Shown here in pieces: positions 6,949-55,890 of a DNA stretch of 64,000 bases. The translations under genes and the position numbers were made by a program. The notes beneath the pieces were generated by a model. It saw only the letters and a program-made list of their open reading frames with translations. It did no database searches and was not told the origin of the DNA. This DNA comes from Gemmatimonadota bacterium (GTDB lineage: Bacteria; Gemmatimonadota; Gemmatimonadetes; Gemmatimonadales; Gemmatimonadaceae), in assembly GCA_040388625.1 (NCBI GenBank), contig JAZKBK010000001.1:620001-684000 (forward strand), given 5' to 3'. Position 1 is the first letter of the stretch; each line of letters starts with the position of its first letter.

Positions 6949-7016
6949 TTAAGTGTTCGAGTCTTGAGTGAGTCCGATTTGCCAACTACTACATGCCATA
7001 CTTCTAACTTAGGCGG

Positions 7017-8685: not shown

Positions 8686-8712
8686 GTGACGTTCATCGGT
8701 ACGCTGCGCCCA

Positions 8713-9033: not shown

Positions 9034-9179
9034 CCCAACACCCCAATGGAATTGGCTAAGTCGTTGGAATGTATGGGTTTACTACGAAGCGCGCAAGCAC
9101 TGAATCAACAGCCCGGCGTTTGGGATGACGCCGCTCGGCCAACTCCGGCTTGGGCTGTGTGACGGCGGTTTGACGATCG

Positions 9180-9243
9180 GCGTGGTCATCCGAATCCCAT
9201 CGCGCGTAAAGGGGCCAGGCGCGGATGCATCCGCGCCCTACGC
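9180..9243. repeat. solo arm of fold-back repeat family with 20-bp palindrome
   Basis: A copy of the repeat found at 14.6-15.1 and 63.7-64.0 kb. The core 9218-9237 is GGCGCGGATGCATCCGCGCC, a perfect 20-base palindrome, flanked by GGGGCCA on the left and CTACGC on the right exactly as in the other copies. The 35 bases to the left (gtcatccgaatccc...cgcgtaaa) resemble the right arm of the 63.9-kb element. Only one arm is present. It starts 7 bases after the carA stop codon and may also act as an mRNA 3' hairpin. Confidence 0.75.
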
Positions 9244-9250
9244 GCGCGCG

Positions 9251-10372: not shown

Positions 10373-10379
10373 TGAGTTC

Positions 10380-10778
10380 CTACTTCTTGGGCGGCGTTGT
10401 GGCAGGCGCCGGACTGGCAGGATTCGCCTGTGCCGGATTCGCCGGCGTGAGCGGTATCGCCGGAGCAGCAGAGCTTGGCGATGGTACTGTCAACGGAGCC
10501 GGTGCGCCCAGCTTGCCCTCGAGGACCGACTTGGGTGCGCGCTGCTGCGTCGACATCAGCTGAAGGATGAAGGCGAGCGCGAGGAAGAGACCGCCGCCCC
10601 ACCAGGAGATCTTGGTGAGCAGATTGCCGGCCTGTCGTACTCCGATGAAGGAGTCAGGCGAAGAGCTGGCACCGCCGAAGCTGGCGGATAGACCCTGACC
10701 GGTCCCGCTTTGCAGCAGAATCGCCACGATCAGGATGATGCTGACCAGGATCAGGAGGAATAGGAGAAATGTGTACAT
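10380..10778 (-). CDS. secG: preprotein translocase subunit SecG
   Basis: This 132-residue protein has two membrane helices (residues 1-22 and about 53-75) separated by a Gly/Ser-rich loop, [20 protein letters not shown], which is the SecG signature. The tail of about 55 residues is Pro/Ala rich and longer than usual. SecG assists SecYE in protein export. It lies directly after tpiA, the common tpiA-secG arrangement in many bacteria. Confidence 0.93.
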
Positions 10779-10796
10779 GTAGCCCTTAAATCTAGA

Positions 10797-11543
10797 CTAT
10801 GCGGAGCATATCGACAACCAGCTATCCGGCTCCAGGCTGGCTCCGCCCACGAGAACGCCGTCCACGTCGTCCGCAGCCAGAATCTGCTCGACATTGGCGG
10901 GCGTGACGCTGCCTCCGTAAAGGATCCGGACTTCTGCGGCGCGGTCGCCGACCAGATCGCGCAGGACGTTCCGGAGGACGCCGTGCGTCTCGGCCGCGTC
11001 CTCGGGAGTCGCGTTCTTGCCGGTGCCGATGGCCCAGACGGGCTCATACGCGATTACGGACGTCGTGAGCTCGACCTGGTCCAGCTGCGCAAGGCCAGCG
11101 CGGAGCTGGCGCGTCACGACGGCGGCCGTCTCGCCGCGATTGCGTTCATGCAGTGTCTCACCCACACAAAGCAGCGGTGTCATTCCCGAGCGCTCGACCA
11201 TTGCACACTTCTTCGCCGTGTCCTCATCGCTCTCGCCGAAAACGTGCCTGCGCTCCGAATGTCCGACCAGCACGTAATCGGCGCCGGCGTCCTTCGCCAT
11301 CGGCGCGGAGTTTTCGCCGGTGAACGCACCACGTTCGGCGTAGTACACGTTCTGAACACCGAACTTGAACGGCGACGGATCGCCAGCCGCAGCGCGAGCG
11401 GATGCAAACGAGAGCGCTGGTGGGAAGATGATCATCTCGACGTCGAAACGACGCCAGCGATGCCGTAATTCCGAGACGATTCCAGCGGCCGCTGTCGGGC
11501 CGTGGTTCATCTTCCAGTTCGCTGCGAATATCTGCTGTCTCAT
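10797..11543 (-). CDS. tpiA: triose-phosphate isomerase
   Basis: This 248-residue enzyme interconverts dihydroxyacetone phosphate and glyceraldehyde 3-phosphate. The opening RQQIFAANWKMNHG has the catalytic Lys, VGHSERRHVFGE the electrophilic His, and AYEPVWAIGTGKNATPE the catalytic Glu with the mobile loop; GGSVTPANVEQIL is the phosphate-binding end. The start is ATG 11543 overlapping the pgk stop (ATGA); a longer open frame upstream lies inside pgk and is arginine-rich noise. The run is gap-pgk-tpiA-secG. Confidence 0.96.
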   Translation of the reverse strand: MRQQIFAANWKMNHGPTAAAGIVSELRHRWRRFDVEMIIFPPALSFASARAAAGDPSPFKFGVQNVYYAERGAFTGENSAPMAKDAGADYVLVGHSERRHVFGESDEDTAKKCAMVERSGMTPLLCVGETLHERNRGETAAVVTRQLRAGLAQLDQVELTTSVIAYEPVWAIGTGKNATPEDAAETHGVLRNVLRDLVGDRAAEVRILYGGSVTPANVEQILAADDVDGVLVGGASLEPDSWLSICSA

Positions 11544-40545: not shown

Positions 40546-41994
40546 TCAGTGGTCGGAGAAGATGGTCGGACCGAACTCAACACCCGCGAGGCGGAGACGC
40601 TCGGTGAACGCCGGCCGGATTCCGGTCGGCTCGAATTCGCCCAGGACCGTTCCGTCGGCGGCAATTCCGCGGCGCCGGAATCTGTAGATCTCCTGCACCG
40701 AAATCACCGCCTCCTCCATCCCCGTCACCTCGACGATGCTCGTGATCCGGCGAGTGCCGTCGGACAGGCGTGATATCTGAATGATCACGTCCAGTGCCGA
40801 CGAGATCTGCTCTCGCATCGCTCGGTTCGGGAGATTCGTTCCGGCCATCAGGATCATCGTCTCGAGACGGGCGAGTGCGTCGCGCGGACTGTTGGCGTGA
40901 ATCGTGGTCAGCGATCCCTCGTGACCGGTGTTCATCGCCTGCAGCATGTCCAGCGCCTCGCCGGATCGCACCTCGCCGACGATTATTCTGTCAGGCCGCA
41001 TGCGCAGCGCATTCTTGACCAGATCACGCGCGACCACCTCGCCCTGCCCTTCCGCGTTGGGCGGTCGGGTCTCGAGCCGAACCACGTGGTGCTGCTGCAA
41101 CCTCAGCTCGGCTGCGTCCTCGATCGTGATTATCCGATGGTCCTCCTGGATGTACGATGTCAGAGCATTGAGCAGCGTCGTCTTGCCGGCGCCAGTACCG
41201 CCCGAGATCAGAATGTTGAGCCGCGCGTTCACACAGCCGGCGAGCAGCTCCATCATCCCTTCGCTCATTGCGCCGTTGGCGAGCAGGTTCTCGATCGCGA
41301 GATCGGCGCCGAAGCGGCGAATCGACAACACCGGACCGTCGAGCGCGAGCGGCGGAATTATGGCATTCACGCGCGACCCATCGGGCAGGCGCGCATCCAC
41401 CATCGGTGACGACTCATCCACGCGACGTCCCACCCGACTGACGATGCGGTCGATGATCGCGGTGAGATGCGCATCATTTCTGAATGACGTGGCGACCCTC
41501 GTCAACTTGCCCCGCCGCTCGACGAAGATCATCTTCGAGCCGTTCACCAGAATGTCGCTGATCGACGGATCGCGGAACAGCGGCTCGATCGGTCCGAGTC
41601 CGATCACCTCGTAGATGATCTGCTCGATGATCTCGTCACGCTGGCTCTGACTGAGTGGAGTGGGTTCATCGCGTAGAAGATCCAGAACCGCGCGCCGGAT
41701 CTCCGCCGATATGACGCGCTCGTCCTTGATCTTCTCCAGCGCGTCGAGATCGAGCCGCTCGATGAGCCTGCGATGCAGATCGCTCTTGAGCTGATCGACC
41801 GTGCCGAGCGTTTCTTCCTCGATGCGGTGCGTGTACATGCCGGATGCAGCTGCCGCCGGCGCCGGCTTCGTCGACGCAGGCGTCGGGAACACCGGCGAGG
41901 CAATCGTCACCGTTGGCGCGGCTGTTGGCGCGCCACCGTTTCCGTTGGCGTCAGGCGATGAAGCGCGCCCCATCAAACGACTCTTAAGTGACAC
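40546..41994 (-). CDS. cpaF: Tad pilus assembly ATPase CpaF/TadA
   Basis: This 482-residue secretion ATPase powers pilus assembly. Walker [10 protein letters not shown] is at 265-273, [17 protein letters not shown] and [30 protein letters not shown] belong to the N-terminal domain, and [38 protein letters not shown] covers the Walker B and His boxes. The first 50 residues are Pro/Ala rich. It has a GTG start and overlaps cpaE by 11 bases. Confidence 0.95.
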
Positions 41995-43201
41995 TTGGAG
42001 ACCTCCCGGTGAGTCCGAACAGACTGCGCAGACGTGAACGCTCCGGCGCCGCCGCAGCTGCGGGACGCACGGGATCGCGCGGCGCGACGGCGCCGCGCAG
42101 CTTGGCCGCGAGCTGCCCGTAGCTTCGCGCCAGCTTGGATCCCGCCGCCTCCTGCGACACCGATATTCCCTTGTTCAGCGAGGCGACCGACGTTCGATAA
42201 TCATTCGGCAGATTCCAGAAGAGCTCGTGTTTCAGTGATTCCGCAACCATCGGCAGCGTGAACACATCACCCGACTGGAACCGGTTGAGCACCACACATG
42301 ACTTTGTCTCGGCGTAGCCAAGCCTGCGAAACAGCGAGAGCGTACGTTGTGTGCTGCGCAGCGATGGGACGTTGGGCTGGGTGACGAGAGCGATGCGATC
42401 TGCTGCGTCGAGGATCGCCAGCGTTCGCTCGCTCATGTGATGCTCGCAATCGATCACCGTGACATCGAAGTTGGCGCGAAGTTGATCCACCACGACGCCG
42501 ACTGTGGCAGCGTCGAACGCGTCGTCCATCATTGGGTCTTCGCTCGATGGGAGGACCGATACGCCCATCGGGCCCTGAGTCATGAGCGAATTCAGCAAAG
42601 CGCCATCGATTCCGTCCAGCTTGTCCACCAGGTCGCTGATGTCGTACGCAGGCTGCAGGTTGAGGAAGACGCGCACGTCGCCGCCGGTGAATACACAGTC
42701 GGCCAGCGCGACCTTCGCGCGCGTATCGTTCGCCGCGAATGCCTGCGCCATGTTCACCGCGATGCTGGTGGTGCCGAGTCCGCCCTTGGCGCTGTATACG
42801 GCTATCACCTGGCCGCTGTGATCGGTGGCGCCACCCCGTATTATCAGCCGCTCGACCGCGGCCGCGAGATCCTGCTGAGTCGGTGGAAAGACGAGAAACT
42901 CGTGTACCCCCGCCCGCATAGCGCGCAGAATGAGATCCGGATCGGCAGTTGGCGCCGTGCCGATCACGGAGAGGTTCGCGCGCCCTCTTATCTCTCGCTC
43001 CAGCATCGCGAGCTGACTCTGCTCGATGCTGTGCAGCGGCACTATCAGCAGGTCAAACGGCTCCGCGCGCAACCGTCCAAGCGCCTGGTCCAGTCGCGGC
43101 GATGGAACGATCGTCGTAAAGCCGAAACGGCTGAGCGCGTCCGCGACCATGTCGGGCGAGCCAGCGGAATCCGCGACGACGATTGCGCGACGCTGCGTCA
43201 T
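41984..43201 (-). CDS. cpaE: Tad pilus localisation ATPase CpaE/TadZ
   Basis: This 405-residue protein has a receiver-like N-terminal domain (about 1-120, with [10 protein letters not shown] and [10 protein letters not shown]) followed by a MinD/ParA-type ATPase domain. The deviant P-loop KGGLGTTS lies at 139-146. In this family it positions the Tad machine at the pole. It begins directly after cpaC. Confidence 0.9.
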
Positions 43202-44488
43202 CTAGCGAGGCTCCGGTTTCGCGACAGGCGGAAGCCGATTCTGTATCGCGCCGCGCGCCGGAAGCGCCGTGTCCGGAATGATCGGCAACGTGTCCACTGG
43301 CCGCGTATGCATCGGATCTATCACCACCGGAGTGACGACTACCAGCAGCTCCGTCTCGTCGTTCTGCCACTGCGTGCTCGAGAAGAGCTGGCCGAGGATC
43401 GGAATGTCCTGCAGAAACGGGATTCCGGTCTTCACGAGATTGCGCGAATTGTTGAACAGTCCGGAGATGATCAGGCTCTCGTCTCTCCGGACATCGACCG
43501 TGGTACTCACACGTCTCGTCTGGAATGCCGGAATGCGGAAGCCAGACAATGTGATTGCGTTGTTGTTGTCGATGCTCGAGACTTCCGGCGCGAGCGACAG
43601 CTTGATGAGACTGTCGTTCAGAATCTCCGGCACGAACTTGAGCTTGACGCCGAATTCCTTGAACATGATCGTGACCGTGTTGGTGCCGCCGGCGGTCTGG
43701 CTTCCCTGCACGATCGGGATCGGAACCTCGCCGCCAGCGAGAAACGTCGCTGTATCGCGATTCCCGGCGAGGACGTCCGGCTCCGCAAGCGTCCGCGAAA
43801 GACCCTTCTGTTCGTTCGCATCCAGCAGCGCGAGCAGTCGCTTGGTGTTGAAGTCGGTCAGCACGGTCAGGAATCCGGTGGTTCCGGGAAGGGTGATCGA
43901 TCCGTCCGCGTTGAACGGGTTGTCCGTATTGAACGTGCCGGTTCCTATGCGCTCGTGGCCCTGGGCGTCTCGGTATCGCGCAGATACGCCGATCGTTCTA
44001 AGCAAGGTGCGATTCACCTCGGCGAACCGTATGTAGACCGCCACCTGTTGCCGATCCGAAGGAGACCGCACGGACACGCGCAGGTGCTGCCGTGTCCCGT
44101 TGGCAAGCCACAGGACAGCGTCCGTCTCACCGATTGCCTTCGCGTTTATCACGAATTCACGACCGCTTACAACGATGAGATCTGCGATGTCCGGCGAGGC
44201 GACCGACGCCTTTGTGAGCGCGACCGGCGTAGTCACCGGCAGCGATCTTCCCACCGAAAGTTCGATCATCGAAATCGGGTCGGCGCGTCCCTGCGTCTCG
44301 GGTCCGTAAACGGCTACACTCTGCGCGAGCGCGCTGCCTGCAGTCATGAAGGTGAACACGCCCGCGGTAGCGAGCGCTGCTGCCGTGTGCCGAAAGTTCG
44401 TAAGGGACAAGAATTCCTCGCTGAATGAAGAAAGAGCGCGTGCGACGTTGCTGCGAACGGTCCGGCATTCCACCATCTCCTGCGTCAC
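43202..44488 (-). CDS. cpaC: Tad pilus outer-membrane secretin CpaC/RcpA
   Basis: This 428-residue secretin forms the outer-membrane channel for the pilus. It has a BON/N-domain start (LPVTTPVALTKASVASPDIADLIVVSG) and the secretin domain (ALLDANEQKGLSRTLAEPDVLAGNRDTATFLAGGEVPIPIV; VRRDESLIISGLFN). The start is uncertain. GTG 44488 overlaps cpaB, but a TTG at 44410 has GAGGA just upstream and would give a clean signal peptide (NFRHTAAALATAGVFTFMTA). I show the longer frame. Confidence 0.92.
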   Translation of the reverse strand: MTQEMVECRTVRSNVARALSSFSEEFLSLTNFRHTAAALATAGVFTFMTAGSALAQSVAVYGPETQGRADPISMIELSVGRSLPVTTPVALTKASVASPDIADLIVVSGREFVINAKAIGETDAVLWLANGTRQHLRVSVRSPSDRQQVAVYIRFAEVNRTLLRTIGVSARYRDAQGHERIGTGTFNTDNPFNADGSITLPGTTGFLTVLTDFNTKRLLALLDANEQKGLSRTLAEPDVLAGNRDTATFLAGGEVPIPIVQGSQTAGGTNTVTIMFKEFGVKLKFVPEILNDSLIKLSLAPEVSSIDNNNAITLSGFRIPAFQTRRVSTTVDVRRDESLIISGLFNNSRNLVKTGIPFLQDIPILGQLFSSTQWQNDETELLVVVTPVVIDPMHTRPVDTLPIIPDTALPARGAIQNRLPPVAKPEPR

Positions 44489-45402
44489 GGCGATTTCGGA
44501 ACGCCACCGGTACCTGGCTTCTCGAACGTCTGCTTCGTCGGCTTGTCGGCGCGATACACGCTCACTGTTACCGAATCCGGGGGTGCGGGCTTGGCCATCA
44601 CGACCGCTACTGGCACCGGTTTCGGAGGTGCGACAATCCGCCGGCGAGCCTCACGATGCGCCTCCGCAGGCTTGACGGCTGGCGCTCCGCGTAGCAGGGC
44701 AAGCACGTCGCTGGATGTCGCTCCGGCAGTGCGAACCGTATCGGGATCGCCATAACCGCGCAGCACCAGTTGTATGCTCCCCTTGTTCATCGCAACGGCG
44801 AGCTGCTCGGCTTCCTGCGGCGTTACGCCAAGTGTGACAGTCGTCGCATTGTTGGGCTTGCCATCGGCGTCACGCTGCACTTCCGTCCCTACGGACAGAA
44901 CCCGCATGTTTTCCATGAACAGCTTTGCCATCTGTGTATCGCGGTTGTTCGCATCCTCGGCCAGAGTCACGAGAACGTCGACGCGACTGTTCGGTTGAAG
45001 CAGGCCGCTTATGCCTGCGACATCGTTGATGCGCACCGCCATCGCGCGCGTCCCCGGCGCGATCTTCTGCTCGAGCCCAGCGCCTGCGCCGGCCGGCGCG
45101 AGCCGTCCCGGCACTATCGCCTCGCCGTTGAAGATGGCAATGCGCGTAACGCGCCCGACCGCCGAGTCGACCGACGAGAATGCTCCGACAGGAACGGTCG
45201 CGATCGGCCAGTTGCGCGTGGTGAGCGCGAGCCGGTCGAGCGACACTCCTTCCGGGAGATCCTTCGTCGCGATAACTACAGGCTGAGTCGGAACTCGCGT
45301 CTGGTCGCGCAGCGATCCCAGCATGCGGTAGGCGCCGAACGTCGCGATAGCCGCGACAACGAGAGCGCCATAGAGAACCATCGTGTACCGTCGTTCAGCC
45401 AT
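44485..45402 (-). CDS. cpaB: Tad pilus assembly protein CpaB/RcpC
   Basis: This 305-residue protein has an N-terminal membrane helix and a SAF/BAF domain (VVIATKDLPEGVSLDRLALTTRNWP) followed by the RcpC region with ENMRVLSVGTEVQRDADGKPNNATTVTLGVTPQEAEQLAVA. The C-terminal 60 residues are Pro/Lys/Arg rich. CpaB associates with the CpaC secretin; the genes overlap by 4 bases. Confidence 0.92.
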   Translation of the reverse strand: MAERRYTMVLYGALVVAAIATFGAYRMLGSLRDQTRVPTQPVVIATKDLPEGVSLDRLALTTRNWPIATVPVGAFSSVDSAVGRVTRIAIFNGEAIVPGRLAPAGAGAGLEQKIAPGTRAMAVRINDVAGISGLLQPNSRVDVLVTLAEDANNRDTQMAKLFMENMRVLSVGTEVQRDADGKPNNATTVTLGVTPQEAEQLAVAMNKGSIQLVLRGYGDPDTVRTAGATSSDVLALLRGAPAVKPAEAHREARRRIVAPPKPVPVAVVMAKPAPPDSVTVSVYRADKPTKQTFEKPGTGGVPKSP

Positions 45403-45467
45403 CGGTCCAACCTCAGCGTGTAGGCGTTACGGAACTGCGATTCGCGTGTGTTGGTGTTCCCAACATA

Positions 45468-45887
45468 TCAACCGGTACTTCGCTCGAGGCGAAACGTCGC
45501 CTGCCGAGTGATGTTTATGTTGGCGCCAAGGAGTGATGCGAGCGGCGTGATCGTCGGCCAAGGGTAGTTGGTGACCTTGACTATCACGCTGCCTGGCACC
45601 GTTGCGACATCGATGGAGATCTCGGCGTCCGTGATTGGCGGACTGCCGAACGGCGTGAACGCAGCTTCGACGCGCGCCTTGACGACTGCCTGACTTGCAA
45701 CCGGGTCGGCCAGTACCGCTGCCTCTCTCGCACCCTCGCGAACGGCACTCGCCATGCTGTTGGCCGTGAACAACAGGCGCCCGAAGTCGATCACGCCCCA
45801 CACGAGCAACAGAAAGATCGGAAGCACGATGGCCATCTCGACCATTGCGGCACCGTCATCTCGGCGAAAGAGTCTGGGCAGACGCAT
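45468..45887 (-). CDS. tadE: TadE-like pseudopilin
   Basis: This 139-residue protein begins RRDDGAAMVEMAIVLPIFLLLVWGVIDFGRLLFTANSMASAVREGARE, the TadE signature with a cleavable G|AAMVE processing site before its N-terminal helix (given in part). TadV is expected to process it. It is coded between the prepilin peptidase and cpaB. Confidence 0.9.
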   Translation of the reverse strand: MRLPRLFRRDDGAAMVEMAIVLPIFLLLVWGVIDFGRLLFTANSMASAVREGAREAAVLADPVASQAVVKARVEAAFTPFGSPPITDAEISIDVATVPGSVIVKVTNYPWPTITPLASLLGANINITRQATFRLERSTG

Positions 45888-45898
45888 GCGGTCCTCGG

Positions 45899-46441
45899 TT
45901 ACGCCAGGGGTAACAAGGCGGCGGCCATCGCACCAAAGGCGAGTGCTACGCCATAAGGAATCGCGCGGCGCGATTTCACATCGACAGTGTGATTCATGAT
46001 TTTGCGTGGATTAGCTATTGCCAGTGCGGCAGTAGCGGCGGTTCCGGTGACACCGTACGCGAACAGCATCCACACCAACGCCAGAACTCCACCTGCCATG
46101 GCGCCAATGAGTGCGCCATCCAGGGTCCGCGCCGGACCGAGCCACGCACCCGCAGCCGCGAACAGCTTGACGTCGCCAGCTCCCAACCACCGAACCATGT
46201 AGAGCGGGAGCCACAGCGCCAGGCCAAAGAGCAGTCCGCCGACACTGATGATCAACGCGTGGGCTGGCTTTGCTGATGCTGCTGCCGAATAGGCCATACC
46301 ACTCGCAGCGAGAAGCCCCGCTACACTGTTTGGAATCCGTCGGTGTTGAAAGTCGGATACACAGGCGCACAGCAGAAGCGTCGCAAATATCGCGAAGCCG
46401 ACAACCGAAATTGTTGAACCTGCGAACAAAGATGCTTTCAT
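45899..46441 (-). CDS. cpaA: prepilin peptidase CpaA/TadV
   Basis: This 180-residue integral membrane aspartyl protease cleaves the Flp prepilins. It has about six membrane helices, the first catalytic Asp at D30 (VSDFQHRRIPN) and the second, D90, in GAGDVKLFAAAGAW. It lacks the methylase domain found in PilD, as usual for Tad systems. It follows the three pilin genes. Confidence 0.92.
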   Translation of the reverse strand: MKASLFAGSTISVVGFAIFATLLLCACVSDFQHRRIPNSVAGLLAASGMAYSAAASAKPAHALIISVGGLLFGLALWLPLYMVRWLGAGDVKLFAAAGAWLGPARTLDGALIGAMAGGVLALVWMLFAYGVTGTAATAALAIANPRKIMNHTVDVKSRRAIPYGVALAFGAMAAALLPLA

Positions 46442-46526
46442 GCGTTACCGGACTCCGAGACAGAGATGTAGCCTTCCCTGCGCACCGACAGCGCGTCAAC
46501 GCCCTCGTCGCTCCGCAGCCATCGCG

Positions 46527-46697
46527 CTACAGGCCCGCGCTCGCGCTTGCGAAGGCTGCTTGCACTTGCCCGCCGAGTGTGGTGATGATTGCGAAACACA
46601 CACCCGCGATCAGCGCCACCATTATTCCGTACTCGACCATCGTCGCGGCGCTGTCATCGCTGACGAAACCCCGGACAGCTCGAGTGATTGAGCTCAT
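46527..46697 (-). CDS. flp: Flp-family pilin (copy 1, Ala before cleavage site)
   Basis: A 56-residue pilin too short for common gene finders: it begins MSSITRAVRGFVSDDSAATMVEYG and has the Flp motif ATMVEYGIMVALIAGV. The residue before ATMVEYG is Ala; the other two pilins here have Gly, the usual requirement of prepilin peptidase. The tail AAFASASAGL differs from the other copies. It lies closest to cpaA. Confidence 0.8.
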   Translation of the reverse strand: MSSITRAVRGFVSDDSAATMVEYGIMVALIAGVCFAIITTLGGQVQAAFASASAGL

Positions 46698-46806
46698 TAC
46701 GATGTCTCCCGGCTGAGGAAGCAGGCTACTCCGCGAAGCGTGGTCTGGCGGTTGACATGCCCATGCATGACTGCGCGGTATGCCAACCTGCAGACTAGCC
46801 CGCGCT

Positions 46807-46977
46807 CTACAGAGCGGTGCTGACGGTGGTAAACGCGGCGAGGATCTGCGTCCCGAGTGTGGTCACAATACCGACGCAAACCGCGGCGATAAGTGCGACC
46901 ATCATCCCATATTCTACCATCGTTGCTCCCTCGTCCCCGCAGACGAAAGCGCGTGCAGCTTGCATGATCCTGTTCAC
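46807..46977 (-). CDS. flp: Flp-family pilin (copy 2)
   Basis: A 56-residue pilin read from GTG 46977, preceded by GGGGGA; starting at the upstream ATG 46992 would add 5 residues not found in the other copies. The body is CGDEG|ATMVEYGMMVALIA with the bar at the expected cleavage, then VCVGIVTTLGTQ and AAFTTVSTAL. It is nearly identical to copy 3 from ATMVEYG on. Confidence 0.85.
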   Translation of the reverse strand: MNRIMQAARAFVCGDEGATMVEYGMMVALIAAVCVGIVTTLGTQILAAFTTVSTAL

Positions 46978-47083
46978 TGTGAGATCCCCCATTTAAGGAA
47001 TTGAACGAATTCATAGGACGGGGTTGGCAGCTGACCAGCCAGCGTGTCGCTGATTGGTCTGCCCGCCACCATCGAGCCTTCGT

Positions 47084-47254
47084 CTACAGTGCAGTGCTTA
47101 CCGTAGTGAACGCGGTTCTGATCTGGGTGCCAAGCGTCGTTACAATTCCAACGCATACCGCCGCGATAAGCGCAACCATCATCCCGTACTCGACCATCGT
47201 TGCGCCATCTTCGTCCGTCAGAAACGAACGGAAACTGCCGGTGAGCTTCTTCAT
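47084..47254 (-). CDS. flp: Flp-family pilin (copy 3, first in the locus)
   Basis: A 56-residue pilin begins MKKLTGSFRSF, with TTAGGAGA upstream of ATG 47254 (an ATG/TTG 18 bases earlier is less likely). Processing is expected at DEDG|ATMVEYGM; the helix MVALIAAVCVGIVTTLGTQ then ends AAFTTVSTAL-like FTTVSTAL. This is the first gene of the Tad locus, so the major pilin by position. Confidence 0.87.
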   Translation of the reverse strand: MKKLTGSFRSFLTDEDGATMVEYGMMVALIAAVCVGIVTTLGTQIRTAFTTVSTAL

Positions 47255-47635
47255 CGAGATCTCTCCTAACAAAATGGAAGGTGTGTGCGCTCCGGTAATC
47301 CGACGACCAAAGCGCCCCCGTAACAGACGTTGGTTGCCGGTTGGGCCAGAGGTGTGCCATTTCTCACTCGTGGATGCAACTGTTTACAACTGCGCCTTCG
47401 GACGACGGCCCAAACGCTGCCATTTGATCGAATCAAATCCTTAAGCGTTGGTGATTTGCACTACGTATGGATAGGTCTCCAATCCGAAGGAGGTATCGAT
47501 GCCGCGCGCCGATACTGCGCACGCCTCAGGGAATCTGCGCAGCGTGACTGTGGCTTCCTTGCATCATGTGGTGCGGCACCACCACGCGCGTGCGCACGTG
47601 CCGATGAGCGAACGGCGCGATCGGTTGCCTAGCAC
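47255..47635. other. gene-free gap upstream of the Tad locus
   Basis: No coding frame with family character is seen on either strand. The part next to the first pilin is likely its leader and promoter (see the sigma-54-like site at 47345-47359); the part at 47400-47635 holds nothing recognised. Confidence 0.5.
47345..47359 (-). promoter_or_regulatory. possible sigma-54 promoter of the Tad pilin genes
   Basis: The complement reads TGGCACACCTCTGGC. It has the GG and GC at the spacing of a -24/-12 promoter (TGGCAC, 5 bases, TGGC), with one mismatch at the -12 element. It would start RNA about 80 bases before the first pilin. The site is short and could be chance. Confidence 0.3.
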
Positions 47636-48672: not shown

Positions 48673-49593
48673 CTACGCGTCGCGCGGTGCGAGCCCGAGC
48701 ATCCTTCGCATCATCGCTCCCAACGGCAAGCTGCCCTGCGCAGCCTCGCCGTACTCCACCGCATGGACCAGCGCAACGCCGTCGCGGGGCCTCAGGTCCG
48801 GCTCCTTCGCGAGGCAGCTCATCACCAGCTTGCAGAACCAGGCCGGTGTCCCGGTCTGATGCGTCGACAGCGAGACGGGACGCTCGGCGATCTGGGCGGC
48901 AATCAGTCTCTGTGCCGTATGCGCAGTCGGAAAAGGATGATGTCCGGCAATCATTTCGTACGTCACAACGCCCCACGAATACACGTCGGTGCGAGCATCT
49001 ATCGCGTCGCCGCATGCCTGCTCCGGCGCCATGTAAGCCGGCGTGCCGAGCGACGTCCCGAGGCTCGTGAGCGTTGGATCCGCCGCCTCCGTCCGTGCCT
49101 CGTGCAGCGCGTGCGCGATCCCGAAATCCGTGACGGAGGCCGCGCCGCCCGTCAGCAGGATGTTATCCGGCTTGATGTCGCGATGCACCATCTCCGCATC
49201 GTGCGCCGCTGCAAGCGCCTTCGCAACGTCGCCCGCAAGTTGGACCGCCTCCGCGTACGGAACGCGCCCGCGTCCGAGCCGCACCCGCAACGACTCGCCG
49301 CGCACGAATGGCATTATGTAGTAAGGGATCTCGTCGGTCGTGTGGCCCGCCGAAAGCACAGGCACGATGTGCGGGCTCTGCAACGTCGCTGCAGCGTGTA
49401 CTTCGCGCGAGAAGCGTTGCACCGATACTCCGGATGCAAGCTCCGGGAGGAGCGCCTTGATGACAACCTGTCGGCCAAGACTTGTGTCGTCCGCAAGAAA
49501 GACGCGCGACATGCCGCCACCGCCGAGCTCGGCGCCCAGCGTGTACGCATCGCCGAGTGCGCTCTGCAACGACTCGCGCAGGTCCACAGTCAC
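48673..49593 (-). CDS. Hanks-type serine/threonine protein kinase
   Basis: This 306-residue protein is nearly all kinase domain. It has the glycine loop LGGGGMSRVF (23-32), Lys at K46, catalytic VHRDIKPDN (136-144), DFG at 156-158 and the APE-type MAPEQ. There is no membrane helix or sensor domain, so input must come from partners. I start at GTG 49593, overlapping the preceding gene by 4 bases; a longer frame would overlap that gene completely. It is the last of a five-gene run that begins with an outer-membrane porin. Confidence 0.92.
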   Translation of the reverse strand: MTVDLRESLQSALGDAYTLGAELGGGGMSRVFLADDTSLGRQVVIKALLPELASGVSVQRFSREVHAAATLQSPHIVPVLSAGHTTDEIPYYIMPFVRGESLRVRLGRGRVPYAEAVQLAGDVAKALAAAHDAEMVHRDIKPDNILLTGGAASVTDFGIAHALHEARTEAADPTLTSLGTSLGTPAYMAPEQACGDAIDARTDVYSWGVVTYEMIAGHHPFPTAHTAQRLIAAQIAERPVSLSTHQTGTPAWFCKLVMSCLAKEPDLRPRDGVALVHAVEYGEAAQGSLPLGAMMRRMLGLAPRDA

Positions 49594-49859
49594 TTCCGAT
49601 ACCAGACCCGGAGAAACTGATACCACTCGTTCACCGACGTCATCGCCTCCTCCGTCTCGACCCGTCCGTCGTTGGTCCCCTCGCTCCTGTCCAGCGTGAT
49701 GTTGGGGAGCACGACGGTTTCGACGTTCGTGGCCTCGATGCCGTTCGCTTCGATCCACTCATTCGCAGCCGCGACCGCCGCGTCGAAGTTCTCCATCTGA
49801 TCAGCGTGAAGCATGCCGCGCTTGATGAGGTGTGGCGCGAAGTCGTGATAGGCGATCAT
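49590..49859 (-). CDS. hypothetical 89-residue protein
   Basis: A short soluble protein opens MIAYHDFAPHLIKRGMLHADQ and has a regular alpha/beta look (FDAAVAAANEWIEANGIEATNVETVVLPN). It has no membrane helix or signal. No family recognised. It overlaps both neighbours by 4 bases, between the membrane protein and the kinase, so it is co-translated with them; partner or substrate of the kinase is a reasonable guess only. Confidence 0.75.
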   Translation of the reverse strand: MIAYHDFAPHLIKRGMLHADQMENFDAAVAAANEWIEANGIEATNVETVVLPNITLDRSEGTNDGRVETEEAMTSVNEWYQFLRVWYRK

Positions 49860-50512
49860 TGTCCGGTCGTTGGTTGCGGCGGTGACGGAGCCGGGCCGCT
49901 GTCAGCCTTCTGCGCCACGCCCATCTCCTTGAGTTTCCTGCCCAGTACCTGCTCGGCCTGCTCGTAAGTCGCGTGCAGGTCGTTTTCCGACGTCACGACT
50001 TCGCGCAGATAATTGTCGGCGCTGCGCACAGCCAGGTCGGCGTCGCCAGGCTTGAAGTTGCTGGCCTGCATCATCGACTGGAAGCCGGCACGACTGTCTT
50101 CCCGGAATCGGTCCTGGAGCGTGTACGTCAGCGAAAGTGCGCGCACCGTCTCGTAGTCGAGATGCGTCAGCGCGCCGGTCAGGGTCGCGGTCTGCCACGC
50201 TGTCTGCAGCAGGAAGGGAGGGCGCAGGCCGTCGATTCCTACCGAGCTCTGAAATTCCGCCTGCGTGCGTATCGAGTGCGACTTCTCCGCCTTCTGCAGT
50301 ATCGAGCGAAGTCCTTCGTGATACAATAGAATGTCATCTACGCGCGCCTCGTTCTGTCGTATCTCCGTCGCGAAATTGGACATGGATTCGGTCGCGAGCT
50401 CGCGCGCTGCTCTGCGCTGCTTCCACTGATCCACCCACAGCGCCAGAAGAATGCTCACAGTCACGGCAATGGACTGAACTATCACCTCTGCCAGCCACGC
50501 AGGTTTGCGCAT
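49856..50512 (-). CDS. membrane-anchored protein of unknown function
   Basis: This 218-residue protein has one N-terminal membrane helix (VIVQSIAVTVSILLALWVD), then a helix-rich domain of about 170 residues with several charged heptads (ATEIRQNEARVDDILLYHEGL). It ends in a Pro-rich tail. The N-terminal QSIAVTVSILLALWVDQWKQRR pattern (helix then Trp/Lys/Arg) recurs in many unnamed bacterial membrane proteins. It lies between the PstS-like gene and the 89-residue gene. Confidence 0.75.
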   Translation of the reverse strand: MRKPAWLAEVIVQSIAVTVSILLALWVDQWKQRRAARELATESMSNFATEIRQNEARVDDILLYHEGLRSILQKAEKSHSIRTQAEFQSSVGIDGLRPPFLLQTAWQTATLTGALTHLDYETVRALSLTYTLQDRFREDSRAGFQSMMQASNFKPGDADLAVRSADNYLREVVTSENDLHATYEQAEQVLGRKLKEMGVAQKADSGPAPSPPQPTTGQ

Positions 50513-50538
50513 GATTACAGCGATCTGCGTGGCAACGA

Positions 50539-51078
50539 CTACTTGAGCGGATACCCCGGGTCCGACGGCAGCTTGCCGTCGATCCTGAGAACCTTCGAGT
50601 TGGACGTTACCGCCGAAGCGAGAACGAAGGTAATCGATCCGGGAACGTTGTCCACGAGATTGATGGCCATGTCCGAGCTGTACACGATCTTGGGACCGCC
50701 GGCCACTTCGGCGCGGAACATCTTGCCGATCCAGTACTGCCTGAACTGGTCCTCGTCCATGCGATAGATCAGATCCAGCACCACGGCCCGCTCGGGCGCA
50801 ACCGGCGCGCGAACGAGCAGCGTGATCTTGGACCGGTCAGGCCAGAACTGTTGCTGGCCCAGAAATATCCTGCGCAGCTCGGCGAACGAGATATCCGATA
50901 CGGTGCTGTGTGGATTCACGACGATCGCGATCGCCTGCCTGCCTGCCGCTGTTGCCTGCGCATCCGATCTGGTGAACGGCATGCACAACATCGTCGCGCA
51001 CAACATGATGATCCGCGCCGTCGTCAAGCGGGGTGCGCCGGTGCAGGCTCGCTGAAGGGCGTACTGGATGGTCGTCAC
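50539..51078 (-). CDS. PstS-like periplasmic substrate-binding protein (short)
   Basis: A 179-residue protein with a signal sequence (IIMLCATMLCMPFTRSDAQA) resembles the phosphate-binding PstS family: AIVVNPHSTVSDISFAELRRIFLGQQQFWPDRSKI, then FRQYWIGKMFRAEVAGGPKI and LVDNVPGSITFVLASAV. It is about half the length of a full PstS, so one lobe may be missing. It overlaps the porin gene by 4 bases. No PstCAB permease is nearby. Confidence 0.78.
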   Translation of the reverse strand: MTTIQYALQRACTGAPRLTTARIIMLCATMLCMPFTRSDAQATAAGRQAIAIVVNPHSTVSDISFAELRRIFLGQQQFWPDRSKITLLVRAPVAPERAVVLDLIYRMDEDQFRQYWIGKMFRAEVAGGPKIVYSSDMAINLVDNVPGSITFVLASAVTSNSKVLRIDGKLPSDPGYPLK

Positions 51079-52184
51079 GGCTGCATCGGGTTATGGTCGC
51101 CGCCGCCGAGGTCGGGAACGGTGAAGCTCGCCTGCACGTACGCGCCATTGGACCAGTCGTGGGTCTCGAACCTCTCACGCCGGTATTCAGCCTTGAGCGC
51201 GGCGAACGACGTGAAGTCGTACCGCACTCCCGCGATTCCGCCATCGTAACCCAGTGCAAGTGGCGCAAACACCACGTCGCCCGCAGCAATGTCCGTCCGC
51301 TCGGCGCGTATGTACGGCTTCCACTGATGGGCCGCGCCGGTGAGACGGTAGGCAAGCTGCGCGTAGCCGGCGTGATTGTGCGTGGTCGCGCCGCCGGTGA
51401 CGGGCGTGTGATCGATCATCACATATTCCGCGATGAACTCCGGCCGCTCGCGCTGCCACGCGATGTACGCCGAGGAGATGCCCTCGGTGGATTCCGGGCC
51501 GCTCGCCTCGCTCACACGATCGTGATAGTAATCGGCGCCGACCTGCATCCCGAACAATGCTGCCGGATGTGCCGACACCGCCAGCGTCCAGGCACGATTG
51601 CCATTCACGTCGCCAGCGTCGCCGCCGCGCGAGATGACACTGCCGCGTCCATTACCGACGCCGGCCGAGTACTGAAGGCCTAGATCCTCCGACGGAATAT
51701 TTCCCTCCACGAATGCACCGACGAAATGCGTCGGGATGAGCTGACTTCCAAACTTGATCATTTCCGGGCGCGACACCGTGGTCTGCAACCACGTTCCGTG
51801 ATGAAAGGTGGTGTTCCAGTATCCCACGGGAGTATGGTAGCGGCCGACGGAAAGCTTTACCGCATCACTGAAGTCGTAACGCAGGATCGAGCGCTCGACC
51901 TCGAAGGCATAACCTGTTGGTTGCGCCGTGGCGCTGAACTCACCGAAGTAATTGAGCCGGTCGTTGAAGGATACGATAATGTGGCCGACCAGCTGGCCGA
52001 GCTCGAATCCCGATGGGATCTTTCGGTCGGTGGCGACGTAGGACGCGTCGCCGAAGAGCATCGCGCGCACTTGCGGAATTACCGGGCCGGATGGCTGTGG
52101 TGTGGAGACGGTATCCTGTGCATCCGCCACTTGCATCGGCGCCAGGCACATCAGGAGGACTACGACCGCGATCGGAGTGCGCAT
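51075..52184 (-). CDS. outer-membrane porin-like beta-barrel protein
   Basis: This 369-residue protein has a signal peptide (MRTPIAVVVLLMCLAPMQVADA). Alternating amphipathic strands follow with many Tyr/Phe, e.g. LNYFGEFSATAQPTGYAFEVERSILRYDF and FAALKAEYRRERFETHDWSNGAYVQASFTVPDL; the end is a barrel-type strand. The overall look is of a phosphate-selective (OprO/P-like) porin, supported only weakly by the PstS-like gene directly after it. I start at ATG 52184, since upstream frames lack a signal. Confidence 0.72.
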   Translation of the reverse strand: MRTPIAVVVLLMCLAPMQVADAQDTVSTPQPSGPVIPQVRAMLFGDASYVATDRKIPSGFELGQLVGHIIVSFNDRLNYFGEFSATAQPTGYAFEVERSILRYDFSDAVKLSVGRYHTPVGYWNTTFHHGTWLQTTVSRPEMIKFGSQLIPTHFVGAFVEGNIPSEDLGLQYSAGVGNGRGSVISRGGDAGDVNGNRAWTLAVSAHPAALFGMQVGADYYHDRVSEASGPESTEGISSAYIAWQRERPEFIAEYVMIDHTPVTGGATTHNHAGYAQLAYRLTGAAHQWKPYIRAERTDIAAGDVVFAPLALGYDGGIAGVRYDFTSFAALKAEYRRERFETHDWSNGAYVQASFTVPDLGGGDHNPMQP

Positions 52185-52305: not shown

Positions 52306-55300
52306 TCATCCCGTTGCCATGCTCGCGTCGCTCGCGATGATGAGACCACCGGTGTAAGCGACGTACGGCACCGTGACTGACGTTGTAGTGGTCGTTCCGC
52401 TGAGGAGGGTCGTGGAATCCTCGCTGCCGTAGGACCCGTTGACGGTCGCAACCTCCACGTTGAGGCCCAAAGCGGCGCTGACCACCTCCTTGACCGTACT
52501 CGACGATTGCTCGATAACCGCGCGCGAGACGGTTTGGCTTCCGGGAGCACTCGTACGGCTGACTTCGAAGAGATACTGTTTTACGCCTGCCGCAAGCGTG
52601 AAGTCATGCTGCCCCGAATAATGGCAGACCTTGATCGGAAGCGAAGGAGGATCGGGCAGCGTAGAGAGATTTTCAGGCTTACCTGTAATTGTCACGTCGC
52701 CCGAGACTTCGACGTGAAGAGCCATCGCCGGGTCGACGTTCGCAGACAGGATGAACGGCGGGCCCAGATCGCCAGACAGGTCTCCCACCGGTTTGCCGCC
52801 TTGCTGCAGCCGAACGGTAAACCGTCCGACGGCGCCGGTAGCATTCCTGTAACCCGTCACATCGGACGCGTCGAACTGGAACAGATTGAAGATGAAAGTG
52901 CGGCTGGTGCCTGTGATCGGCTGCGGCGGAGCTGGCGCACCCTTGGGTACGACAGGTGGCTGCGTCGGCGCTGCCGGAGCCATCGGTTGCGCTGGTGCTA
53001 CCGCGGTCGAAGTCCCGCTGTCGCCCCCGGTTGCTCCACCCGACGTCGCACCAGAAGCCGACCCAGTAGCCGCGGCTCCGCTCGTCGGCGCGGGTGTGCC
53101 CCCGCCGCTCGCGCCACTACTACTCCCACCGGCAGTCGGTGCGACGGCTGCTCCGCCACCTGCGCTGCCGGATGCTCCCTTCGCACCCCCGCCGGAGGTA
53201 GCGCCGCCACCTGTTGTCCCACCACCGCCGCCGGATTTGTCGATCTGCTTGCCCGCAAGGCTTGTCGCATCGCTCGCGAGTGATTGCAGTAAACTCGCGA
53301 CCTCGGACGACGTCGACATGTCGCGGAAGATGTCACTCTTCCCAAGCAGTGCCAGCGCGCCCGCCATTGCCACGGGATCCGGCGCCGCCGGCGGGTTCAC
53401 GATATTGAGCATCGAGCTCGGGAACGCAGTCGGCGTGGTTGATGTCTGCACGTTCCGCGTGCCAAGTCCGATGTCGGTGATCGCAGGTGCGGCGTCAGGA
53501 TCCGGCGACTTCTGCCAATCCCAGAAGCGGGTGTCGTCGATTACCTCGGCCGCATTGCAGTGCCCGAGCTTCGCCTCCGCAAATATCCCGCGGGTCGGAA
53601 GGCTGACGACGCGTTCGTCGCGCGCGGGCGAAACAATCGGAAGCGCCGGCATGCTTCCTTGGAGGTTGCTGCTGGTCGCGACGTCAATGAGACTCGGATC
53701 CAGTGCGAACGCGGTGCTGTCGCCCAACACGTCGAGCGCGCGATTGGTGATCGCTTCAAAGATTGGCCGGACCTGCCCATGCACGTTGAGCGTGGAGCCA
53801 CGAAGGCGCATATAGCGCGAATTGGGATCCTCACCCAGCCATATCAGCCGGTAGTAGTACGATTTGTTGTTGTCGAGGTGATATTTCAGACGCACGCGCA
53901 ACAGATTCTCGTCGTCGGTCAATTTTGATTCTGGAGTTGGCGCGGTCGGAGCCGGGGGCAGGGTCGAAGTAAATATGGTGAAAGTGCCTGTAGATCCTTG
54001 CACGTGAGGATCCAGCGTCGTGGGCGTTGCTAGTTGCCCCACCAGGATATTCGAGCCGTCAGACATAATCGCGGCAACCGAACCGCCAGCAAATGAAATA
54101 GCGAACTTGTTGTCGACGCTTCCAGGGTCCCCGGAATCCCCGTCGAATGTGAAACTGAAATCGATTTCGGTAATTTGGCGCCGAGTGATCGACGAAGCAG
54201 GTACCGCTACAAAGCTTTCTGTGCGGCTTGATTGCTGAAAATTGCCATCTTGCTGGAGTTGATCGGCGGGTTTCAGGGAATCGTTGCGCTGCAACGTGAT
54301 GGAAGTGCCGTCGTTCAAGATGACTTTGGCTCTTAGCGTGCCTCCGGTAATTGACGGAATGTCCACCTGCAGGGAGATGCTGAAGCTACGTATCATCTGT
54401 GCAAACGGATCGGGGGGCGCCGGCAGTGGCAGCAAAGTCCACGCGAAGTACTTCTCAACGGCGGCGAACCCAGGCAGCAGCGACGCATCGACAAGACCCG
54501 GTTCCAGATACCGTCGAAATGTGAAGATGGCTTCTTCGTCGAAGTCCGGCATGTGGCTGGGTATGAGTACCGCCGGCGTAACATCGGCCCGCTCCACAAC
54601 GACGCGGAAGTGCCGCAACACTTCGTAATACAGCAGCGTCATCGCGTGAGCGTGATTGTGATTGCGCACCGTTCGCGTCTGCGCGCTCGCCTGTTCGGAC
54701 TGCTTGCTCTGCACGACGACCGTGCTTCTCAGATCTCTGACGGCGGTCGAGTGCTGCGCGAACGAATCCTGCAGTGACTGAACCGTTTGGGAGCTGACGT
54801 CGCGATCCCCCTGCGTCGTCGAATACCCGCCACCAATCGAGCCCACGGCCGAGCCGTATGCGCTCGATACCGCTGCAGCGATGCCGCCCAGGAGTGAGCC
54901 GCCTGCCTGAAACTCGTGCACGGTCGCGCTCACAACTTCATCCACCGTCCGGTCGCGCACCTGGCTGTGCTCCAGCGTGTCGGTGAGCATGTTTTCTTCG
55001 TTGCGCGAATCGGTCGACTGTCGCGCCCAATCGACAATCGCAAGGTTTACCTGCTCGCCCGGCGCGAGCGGTAAGCTGTAGGCGATCTGCCCAAGTCCAT
55101 GCCCAACCGGAATCCAGGTGACGTCGTAGTTCACGATCAGCGCCAGCTGAGTGTTTCCGGTGAACGCGAGTGGCGCAAATTCCGGTTTTATCGCAGTCTG
55201 TGCGAGCGGTTTCGCAACAACCAGCTCGGCCCGGCCCTTTGCGTTCGCGCCCTTTGGAGCTGGCGCCGCCGCGGGCGACGTAATGGTTACGTCATACATG

Positions 55301-55890
55301 CTCGGCAACTGCACGATCTGATGCACCTGGAAGTGCTGCGTCGCGACGTTGGATGGAAGCAGCGCCTCGCATCCATCCTGACCGACCAGCATCGCTGGAA
55401 CGTTGGCGAACGATCCTGGCGACAGATTGAGGTCTACCAGAGTCGGCGACTGCATTGACGGGTAACTTCCGGCGTCCGCCTCATACACGCCGTTCCTGTC
55501 GACAGCGAGCCGCAGGACTATCGCTTCCGGTCCTGTTTGCGCACTGGGCAAAGCGTCCACGACACTCTGCAACGGCCCGTAGATGTGCAGCGAGAGACCG
55601 TCCAGCTGACTGGCGAGGCTGCCTCCAGTCTGTATCTCGGTAAGTATCTCGGTCTGGCGTCGTAACGGCTCAAGATCCCACGAGAGGTAGCCGGCGTGGT
55701 CGCTCGCCAATACTCCCAGAGCGATCTCTACACTCTGCCGCGGAACAGATTGGCCATCCCCGCTCTGCCCCAGACCCAGCTGTGCGGTCGCGAACACCGG
55801 GACGTTCGCCACTGGAGCGCCGGTATCGGTCTCCATCAGGAAAACGGAAAACCGCCCAGGGCCTTCGTTTGCTCCGAAAGGGACACTCAT
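52306..55890 (-). CDS. large (1194-residue) protein of unknown function
   Basis: I do not recognise this protein. It has no signal peptide. Residues 10-60 look like an Ig/transthyretin-type beta domain (FSVFLMETDTGAPVANVPVF). Residues 240-300 include TWIPVGHGLGQIAYSLPLAP. Residues 296-410 are rich in helix and in Ser/Gln. Residues 410-426 form the striking NHNHAHAMTLLYYEVLR. A beta-rich part runs 500-640, then a less clear region to 885. A low-complexity Gly/Ser/Ala/Thr/Pro linker spans 886-990. A compact C-terminal domain (about 995-1194) opens RTFIFNLFQFDASDV. It lies between a Spy-like gene and the porin, all on the minus strand. Confidence 0.8.
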   Translation of the reverse strand: MSVPFGANEGPGRFSVFLMETDTGAPVANVPVFATAQLGLGQSGDGQSVPRQSVEIALGVLASDHAGYLSWDLEPLRRQTEILTEIQTGGSLASQLDGLSLHIYGPLQSVVDALPSAQTGPEAIVLRLAVDRNGVYEADAGSYPSMQSPTLVDLNLSPGSFANVPAMLVGQDGCEALLPSNVATQHFQVHQIVQLPSMYDVTITSPAAAPAPKGANAKGRAELVVAKPLAQTAIKPEFAPLAFTGNTQLALIVNYDVTWIPVGHGLGQIAYSLPLAPGEQVNLAIVDWARQSTDSRNEENMLTDTLEHSQVRDRTVDEVVSATVHEFQAGGSLLGGIAAAVSSAYGSAVGSIGGGYSTTQGDRDVSSQTVQSLQDSFAQHSTAVRDLRSTVVVQSKQSEQASAQTRTVRNHNHAHAMTLLYYEVLRHFRVVVERADVTPAVLIPSHMPDFDEEAIFTFRRYLEPGLVDASLLPGFAAVEKYFAWTLLPLPAPPDPFAQMIRSFSISLQVDIPSITGGTLRAKVILNDGTSITLQRNDSLKPADQLQQDGNFQQSSRTESFVAVPASSITRRQITEIDFSFTFDGDSGDPGSVDNKFAISFAGGSVAAIMSDGSNILVGQLATPTTLDPHVQGSTGTFTIFTSTLPPAPTAPTPESKLTDDENLLRVRLKYHLDNNKSYYYRLIWLGEDPNSRYMRLRGSTLNVHGQVRPIFEAITNRALDVLGDSTAFALDPSLIDVATSSNLQGSMPALPIVSPARDERVVSLPTRGIFAEAKLGHCNAAEVIDDTRFWDWQKSPDPDAAPAITDIGLGTRNVQTSTTPTAFPSSMLNIVNPPAAPDPVAMAGALALLGKSDIFRDMSTSSEVASLLQSLASDATSLAGKQIDKSGGGGGTTGGGATSGGGAKGASGSAGGGAAVAPTAGGSSSGASGGGTPAPTSGAAATGSASGATSGGATGGDSGTSTAVAPAQPMAPAAPTQPPVVPKGAPAPPQPITGTSRTFIFNLFQFDASDVTGYRNATGAVGRFTVRLQQGGKPVGDLSGDLGPPFILSANVDPAMALHVEVSGDVTITGKPENLSTLPDPPSLPIKVCHYSGQHDFTLAAGVKQYLFEVSRTSAPGSQTVSRAVIEQSSSTVKEVVSAALGLNVEVATVNGSYGSEDSTTLLSGTTTTTSVTVPYVAYTGGLIIASDASMATG

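Follow-up and report, generated by a model that had tools for sequence, protein, structure and literature searches.

A porin and one-lobe PstS relative in an operon with a Hanks-type Ser/Thr kinase in Gemmatimonadota: a possible VpvAB-type sensing unit

We identified a five-gene operon in a 64,000-nucleotide stretch (the window) of the genome of a Gemmatimonadota bacterium (contig JAZKBK010000001.1). The host is a soil-type bacterium. The genes and their products are listed in Table 1. The porin-like and half-size PstS-like (half-PstS) genes overlap by four bases, a 26-base gap follows, and the genes for the one-helix protein and p89, and for p89 and the kinase, again overlap by four bases each, as the first-pass annotation had described. 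Scans of the locus for sigma-70 promoters and terminators returned background level only. No permease gene was found within the cluster or among the scanned neighbours, in agreement with the earlier observation that none accompanies the binding protein, and no ATPase or permease gene adjoins half-PstS in the cluster.

Table 1. Genes of the operon, in order of transcription; positions are those of the window.
Product	Position	Strand	Remarks
Outer-membrane porin-like protein, 369 aa	51075..52184	-	Signal-like N-terminus; VpvA-like position
Half-size PstS-like protein (half-PstS, PBP), 179 aa, GTG start	50539..51078	-	PstS lobe 2 only; VpvB-like position
One-helix membrane protein (TM), 218 aa	49856..50512	-	Helical-bundle domain; without Pfam family
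p89, 89 aa, soluble-looking, function unknown	49590..49859	-	Almost genus-restricted
Hanks-type Ser/Thr kinase, 306 aa, GTG start	48673..49593	-	All catalytic motifs; without membrane segment

The same gene set and order is common to all four genomes of the genus that were examined, although the contig of one (G003) cuts the porin gene. The two downstream four-base overlaps are kept in all four genomes and the porin/half-PstS overlap in all three whose contig includes that junction, while the gap measures 26, 26, 29 and 28 bases. These exact overlaps persist across dS values above 1 for most genome pairs. Purifying selection acts on each of the five genes, with dN/dS (NG86) of 0.02–0.25 wherever computable; for the porin gene this is a single pair, as two others are saturated in dS. 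The five-gene operon is thus confirmed as real. It is not one indivisible system, however, but consists of modules of different spread. The porin and half-PstS make up a unit that is both old and widespread, and in Gemmatimonadota they are commonly partnered by the one-helix protein. Among the loci surveyed, p89 and the kinase occur alongside the pair in this genus only. The first-pass annotation had named separation of the genes in relatives as evidence against its reading, and such separation is seen in part: all five stay together within the genus, but a sister locus (L051) and other loci with the one-helix gene (TM-type loci) have porin, half-PstS and one-helix genes with neither p89 nor the kinase nearby.

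The half-PstS protein has a signal-like N-terminus. Its structure model (pLDDT 85.5, about 97 in the core) matches 1twy_B (Z 17.8, rmsd 1.8 over 120 residues), and its best fold matches, which include 1twy_B, 4gd5_A and 4q8r, are phosphate-binding proteins. Both the model and the fold match cover lobe 2 only (1twy 99–236; E. coli PstS 76–253), with lobe 1 missing, which bears out the earlier description of the protein as half-size and PstS-like. SGT is the phosphate-contact motif of PstS. Of the 97 sequences aligned, one keeps it, the full-length PstS of L059, and the window protein has APE in its place. Phosphate, named as a possible ligand by the first-pass annotation, is therefore not supported, and the ligand is probably not phosphate bound in the manner of PstS. 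In databases most of these proteins are entered as 'phosphate ABC transporter substrate-binding protein', a name that misleads for a single lobe without the PstS motif.

The porin-like protein matches Porin_O_P with E=0.0041, its 16.8 bits falling below the Pfam gathering score of 20.9. The earlier assignment as a porin is thus weak by Pfam, but the protein is homologous to the porin-like partners sited upstream of half-PstS across the family. In Photobacterium (Vibrionaceae; L135) the porin match reaches 5.7e-8, and the half-PstS there matches the profile weakly (25 bits). One locus (L031) has the two genes fused in an ORF of 616 codons. No second case was found among the other high-scoring half-PstS matches in the 294 genomes sampled from its phylum, and the fusion may therefore be an assembly error.

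The one-helix protein is modelled as a helical bundle (pLDDT 78). No useful Pfam relatives were found in a search with 12 members, nor any PDB relatives by sequence, and the fold search returned designed and assorted helical bundles with Z up to 12.8, a range common for helical models. Aligned against the receptor domains of the signalling proteins at related loci (4HB_MCP_1 in L077), it gives an hhalign probability of 0.3%. From the charge distribution the family is predicted to lie N-in/C-out, with about nine residues left in the cytoplasm; the charges of the window copy itself are ambiguous. The relay through this protein that the first-pass annotation proposed is therefore doubtful.

The kinase gives a strong Pkinase match (E=3.2e-40, Pfam). 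The glycine loop, VIK lysine, HRD, DFG and APE are all present in its four orthologues, whose highest 19-residue hydropathy is 1.3 to 1.6 and which have no membrane helix. It is not a PASTA receptor kinase of the PknB/Stk1 type (NCBIfam NF033483 scores 250 against a cut-off of 450, and a membrane helix is absent). The genome has 30 kinase domains above cut-off, and a kinase as a neighbour is therefore not very rare. p89 is present in 5 of 395 genomes of the phylum. We considered whether it might be half of a kinase pair elsewhere, but the only such candidate was a lone, distant copy (G330) with no kinase or one-helix match noticed within 1.9 kb.

A porin, a periplasmic binding protein and a membrane diguanylate cyclase form the published signalling module VpvABC of Vibrio cholerae (PMC12456836; also PMC8754643). 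There, vpvAB is proposed as a conserved sensing unit in Pseudomonadota that was linked to vpvC later, and the signal sensed by the V. cholerae unit is given as unknown (PMC12456836). We surveyed the genes beside the porin/half-PstS pair. The pair, or its half-PstS, was found in Gemmatimonadota, Acidobacteriota, Nitrospirota, Myxococcota and one genome titled Planctomycetota. Removing repeats with identical last 90 residues reduced 94 loci to 90. Among these are at least one PstS of full size (L059), the fragments L038 and L079, and some ORFs with upstream extensions. By automatic count, the nearest same-strand downstream gene is a signalling gene in 27 of these 90 loci versus 18 of 345 control genes at the same loci (p=9e-10, the loci not being independent). 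A second set, made up of 19 mostly highest-scoring matches from the half-PstS search and one further locus from G399, gave 8 of 20 versus 3 of 66 (p=1e-4 by Fisher test on 8 of 18, two contig ends left out). Signalling labels come from small home-made profiles, with Pfam run on selected named proteins. Many loci of the weak class have no signalling neighbour.

Among 33 close homologues, the one-helix protein occurs in 14 and a signalling protein at the same place in 13, never both. This 14/13/6 split follows hand reassignment of two strong-class rows, L080 to the one-helix class and L025 to the cyclases; the automatic counts were 13, 12 and 8. An 863-aa ORF following half-PstS in L080, a candidate output gene, proved to be an extension that runs out of frame across the one-helix gene. 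The outputs vary while the input is constant, and include HAMP-cyclase, HAMP-HisKA, GGDEF-EAL, MCP and hybrid histidine kinase proteins. A second lineage has membrane-anchored Ser/Thr kinases next to the pair, and single cases occur in Acidobacteriota and in one other genome of Gemmatimonadota. Genes encoding a Ser/Thr kinase, membrane helix and WD40 repeats (STK-TM-WD40) lie convergent to half-PstS in L172, L173, L177 and L180; in L170 a truncated neighbour, tallied automatically as 'other' in the second set, was later recognised as a WD40 tail. In Acidobacteriota L028 an STK-WD40 gene lies upstream of the porin, and in L081 an STK-TPR gene is convergent. As the immediate downstream neighbour, a Ser/Thr kinase occurs in 5 of 110 loci versus 4 of 411 controls, a nominal difference only (p=0.023), with four of the five from one lineage. 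Since the gene after half-PstS in relatives is often a membrane signalling protein, matching VpvABC, the earlier proposal of sensing rather than transport is supported.

Based on gene order, conservation and these associations, we read the locus as a VpvAB-type sensing input with a split Ser/Thr-kinase output, the kinase ending being its unusual part. We put the probability that a Hanks-type Ser/Thr kinase is the output of such a unit in this genus at a little under one half. The porin would admit or report either a small solute or the state of the envelope, and half-PstS, at or near the periplasmic mouth of the porin, would alter how it contacts the helical bundle that the one-helix protein would place in the periplasm. 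In relatives, a membrane signalling protein has its receptor domain at the place that the one-helix protein would fill. The helix of the one-helix protein and its conserved cytoplasmic tail may recruit or activate the soluble kinase, possibly with the help of p89 as an adaptor. Gene order, conservation, the lobe-2 fold, the intact kinase motifs and the frequent presence of signalling genes beside the pair are observed, whereas sensing by the pair, the topology, the contacts and the relay to the kinase are inferred. A bolder form of the proposal seems to us less likely than not: a split receptor Ser/Thr kinase, in which the porin and one-lobe PstS relative are a portable outer-membrane and periplasmic sensor plugged by evolution into every major bacterial signalling output, here reaching a soluble Hanks-type kinase by way of a distinct one-helix receptor and the small adaptor p89. 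The survey extends the V. cholerae-type porin and binding protein unit, or its half-PstS, to further phyla, with a constant input and an exchanged output (cyclase, histidine kinase, c-di-GMP enzyme, chemotaxis receptor, Ser/Thr kinase). To our knowledge, the signals of bacterial Ser/Thr kinases are mostly unknown; if the kinase link is true, it would provide one with an outer-membrane-linked input.

Alternatively, the first three proteins may form an envelope complex, for example one that gates or anchors the porin, while p89 and the kinase, a unit of their own, were added to the transcript in this genus and do not take its signal. This is a possible, if less favoured, reading. It would account for the TM-type loci that lack p89 and the kinase, where the one-helix gene is often convergent. 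Outside the genus, no kinase or cyclase gene was found among ten scanned neighbour proteins of such loci, which include cytochrome b/Rieske, PAP2, UvrA-like and mannosyltransferase-like proteins, an M48 peptidase and one Trans_reg_C protein. The predicted periplasmic bundle with its very short cytoplasmic tail is also consistent with it, as is the sister genome G002, in which the one-helix–p89–kinase stretch is 91–99% identical to the window (150-base blocks) while the porin gene and the 5' part of half-PstS are far more diverged. However, the persistence of the exact overlaps in the genus, the Ser/Thr kinases adjoining the pair in other lineages and the general tendency of the pair to lie beside signalling genes argue against it.

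A module for phosphate or another oxyanion, as the first-pass annotation partly suggested, in which a phosphate-selective porin feeds a phosphate-binding protein for sensing or scavenging, is improbable. The fold matches, the weak Porin_O_P match, the database names and the two PAP2 phosphatase-like genes that lie ahead of the porin gene in L051 point toward it, but half-PstS lacks lobe 1, SGT is absent in 96 of the 97 sequences, and the genome encodes a separate full-length PstS with an adjoining HAMP histidine kinase and OmpR-type regulator. A single-gene role in phage defence for the kinase, of the PD-T4-6 type and with unrelated neighbours, is very improbable. PADLOC PD-T4-6 models do score down to E=7e-76; however, these matches are generic to kinase domains, many overlapping PD-T4-6 models and the PASTA kinase model matching the same region, the genome has many such kinases, and the gene is tied to envelope genes by tight conserved overlaps.

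In titles and abstract openings, with subscription papers mostly outside coverage, we found no literature linking the porin/half-PstS pair to a Ser/Thr kinase. Several known systems nevertheless resemble parts of the locus. Half-PstS has the same lobe-2 fold as PstS of the Pst transporter but lacks lobe 1, the SGT motif and an adjoining permease or ATPase. In the STK-TM-WD40 loci a Ser/Thr kinase gene likewise adjoins the pair, but it encodes a single chain that carries both a membrane helix and a WD40 tail, and is convergent and outside the operon. NspS-MbaA of V. cholerae places a membrane c-di-GMP enzyme under the control of a periplasmic binding protein; however, NspS binds polyamines, no porin is named for the system in the abstracts, and no Ser/Thr kinase is involved. 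In GltB-GtrS/GltR of Pseudomonas aeruginosa, direct contact with a periplasmic binding protein activates a membrane sensor kinase, with the porin OprB in the operon, but GltB is a full-size glucose binder that also serves an ABC transporter, and the kinase is a histidine kinase (PMC7927077). VpvABC is a named system of this kind, contrary to the earlier remark that none is known: a porin and then a periplasmic binding protein in one operon feed a signalling protein (PMC12456836). The likeness is one of gene order and protein types. A porin (weak by Pfam) comes first and a binding protein second in both. The third place, held by a diguanylate cyclase in V. cholerae, is here taken by the one-helix protein, p89 and a Ser/Thr kinase, and profile searches of the five proteins found no GGDEF domain.

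The operon encodes a porin, a half-size PstS-like periplasmic binding protein (half-PstS), a protein with one membrane helix, an 89-amino-acid protein (p89) and a Ser/Thr kinase, at the positions and with the overlaps described in the first-pass annotation, whose five-gene layout is thus confirmed. The closest titled relatives of the window are Gemmatimonadetes MAGs. The set recurs with identical overlaps in the three other sampled genomes of the genus (G001–G003), the porin gene of G003 being cut by a contig end, and each of the five genes has a dN/dS of 0.02–0.25 wherever a genome pair allowed the calculation. Pfam support is weaker for the porin than for the remaining operon proteins. The operon is real and conserved. 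Near window position 50800, identity to the sister genome G002 (locus L061) shifts sharply within the half-PstS gene, from 91–100% on the kinase side to far lower values towards the porin, a pattern that recombination could have produced by exchanging the porin end. The 1194-amino-acid gene upstream of the porin is missing from G002, where the sequences matching window positions 52228 and 56143 lie close together.

Features of the window (G000:C1:620001-684000, in a genome of 3.84 Mb) and of loci in other genomes
Feature	Source	Coordinates	Strand	Remarks
Porin	window	52184-51075	minus	
Half-PstS	window	51078-50539	minus	
One-helix protein	window	50512-49856	minus	
p89	window	49859-49590	minus	
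Ser/Thr kinase	window	49593-48673	minus	
1194-aa gene	window	52306-55890	minus	no Pfam match; ~121 bases upstream of porin
Pilus-type genes	window	40546-47272		downstream of operon; secretion ATPase (T2SSE), prepilin peptidase (Peptidase_A24)
Flp/Fap pilin	window	47084-47272		Pfam-confirmed
Small ORF similar to pilin	window	46807-46992		
Half-PstS and porin in one ORF	L031	5782-7620		no second signal sequence between; MCP gene upstream
Two PAP2 phosphatase-like genes	L051 (sister genus)	9222-10726	same as porin	directly upstream of porin
~380-aa gene in three tandem copies, plus half-PstS gene	L060 (genome G018)	5772-11075		
Half-PstS and porin-like gene	L130 (Alteromonas mediterranea plasmid)	4001-8405		adjoin type IV CRISPR genes csf1-csf3

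The porin/half-PstS pair is the core of the system. Close homologues are adjacent in Gemmatimonadota and Acidobacteriota, and more distant ones stand side by side in Myxococcota (L037) and in plasmid records of Proteobacteria. Of the 395 genomes searched in the window's phylum, 67 have a half-PstS profile match, as do 71 of 294 in another sampled phylum, titled Planctomycetota; the lower-scoring matches in both sets include apparent full-size PstS. The single ORF at L031, in the latter phylum, is not repeated among the other high-scoring matches of that sample and is therefore either a fusion or an assembly error. A single-sequence search found the one-helix protein in 8 of 60 relatives; p89 occurs in 5 of the 395 phylum genomes, four of them from the window genus.

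The half-PstS model corresponds with high confidence to lobe 2 of PstS (core pLDDT ~97). Residues 43–179 superpose on 99–236 of 1twy_B (Z 17.8, rmsd 1.8, 120 residues), and the protein also matches residues 76–253 of E. coli PstS (Z ~13.6, rmsd 2.2, 121 residues). A profile built from 20 half-PstS relatives matched phosphate-binding proteins in the PDB by sequence too. Phosphate, earlier named as the possible nutrient, is nevertheless not borne out. Lobe 1 is missing, which rules out the closure around a ligand seen in two-lobed proteins; PstS contacts phosphate through its SGT motif, which is APE in the window copy and is kept in only one of 97 aligned sequences (the full-size L059); and elsewhere the genome encodes a full-length PstS, with genes for a HAMP histidine kinase and for an OmpR-type regulator beside it.

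The pair is associated with signalling genes. In 27/90 distinct loci the first gene downstream is a signalling gene on the same strand; among more distant genes of those loci the figure is 18/345. The p=9e-10 for this contrast is too strong because the loci are related. In a second set such a gene is found in 8/20 loci (controls 3/66), and a convergent Ser/Thr kinase gene takes the downstream place in 4/20 (controls 1/66). By Pfam, the outputs include HAMP-guanylate/adenylate cyclases (L025, L070, L189), HAMP-HisKA proteins with or without a receiver (L026, L075, L076, L174, L178), GGDEF or GGDEF-EAL proteins (L029, L030, L032, L052, L077, L179) and MCPs (L082, L176); the order at L083 is half-PstS, porin, MCP. 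The 33 close homologues divide by what is encoded directly downstream: the one-helix protein in 14, a signalling protein in 13, neither in 6 and both in none, two hand corrections included. Output switches at least five times among the signalling rows of the half-PstS tree, in which the sequences of the window genus group together (93/91). The sister locus L051 has the porin, half-PstS and one-helix genes without the kinase, so that, most simply, the kinase and p89 would have joined this unit in the stem of the window genus.

At L172, L173, L177 and L180, a gene convergent to half-PstS, with a gap of -25 to 67 bases, encodes a Ser/Thr kinase that carries a membrane helix and a long extension at its C terminus. 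The L173 extension is WD40 by Pfam, and the other three kinases align to that of L173 over almost its full length; mutual identity is 49–90% for the kinases and 52–95% for the binding proteins. L170 has a contig-cut WD40 end in the same place, L081 a convergent STK-TPR gene, and in the Acidobacteriota locus L028 a related STK-WD40 gene precedes the porin by ~555 bases in the same orientation. As immediate downstream neighbours, Ser/Thr kinases number 5/110 versus 4/411 in controls (p=0.023), four of the five coming from one lineage. This supports, without proving, coupling of the pair to Ser/Thr kinases more than once.

Every Hanks motif is present in all four orthologues of the window kinase, which has no membrane segment. 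No known family matched the one-helix protein, whose model is a single membrane helix continuing into a helical bundle. The helix flanks are positive on the N side and negative on the C side in most relatives (e.g. L021–L024, L071–L074), which predicts an N-in, C-out topology for the family; the flanking charges of the window copy are ambiguous. In the mechanism we suggest, the porin and half-PstS would report a solute, or the state of the envelope, to a partner in the membrane; in the window operon this partner would be the one-helix protein, and the output would be the kinase. Crossing the inner membrane is the weak link, as only ~9 residues face the cytoplasm in the predicted topology; their sequence, MRKPAWLAE, does not vary among the four genus genomes. 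This tail could be a docking site for p89 or the kinase; alternatively, the kinase may be a passenger in the operon that acts independently. On these grounds we give the relay from the sensing pair through the one-helix protein to the kinase a probability of roughly one half (0.48), and consider a passenger kinase somewhat improbable. The sensing proposed initially is supported in part: the pair has signalling neighbours, and the membrane relay is where the proposal is weak.

The first-pass annotation knew of no named system of this kind, but VpvABC of Vibrio cholerae is a close one. One report (PMC12456836) presents VpvA (porin), VpvB (periplasmic binding protein) and VpvC (diguanylate cyclase) as a predicted three-component module whose signal is unknown; it notes that many Gamma- and Betaproteobacteria have vpvAB but lack vpvC, and suggests that vpvAB may be a conserved sensing unit. 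In another (PMC8754643), VpvA and VpvB are classed as hypothetical proteins with no known function. Contact between a periplasmic binding protein and a sensor kinase is shown in a third (PMC7927077). By gene content, the input of the window locus, porin plus periplasmic binding protein, resembles that of VpvABC. However, the third gene of VpvABC is a diguanylate cyclase, which places the window locus outside that module. What is new here is the kinase output and the breadth of output exchange.
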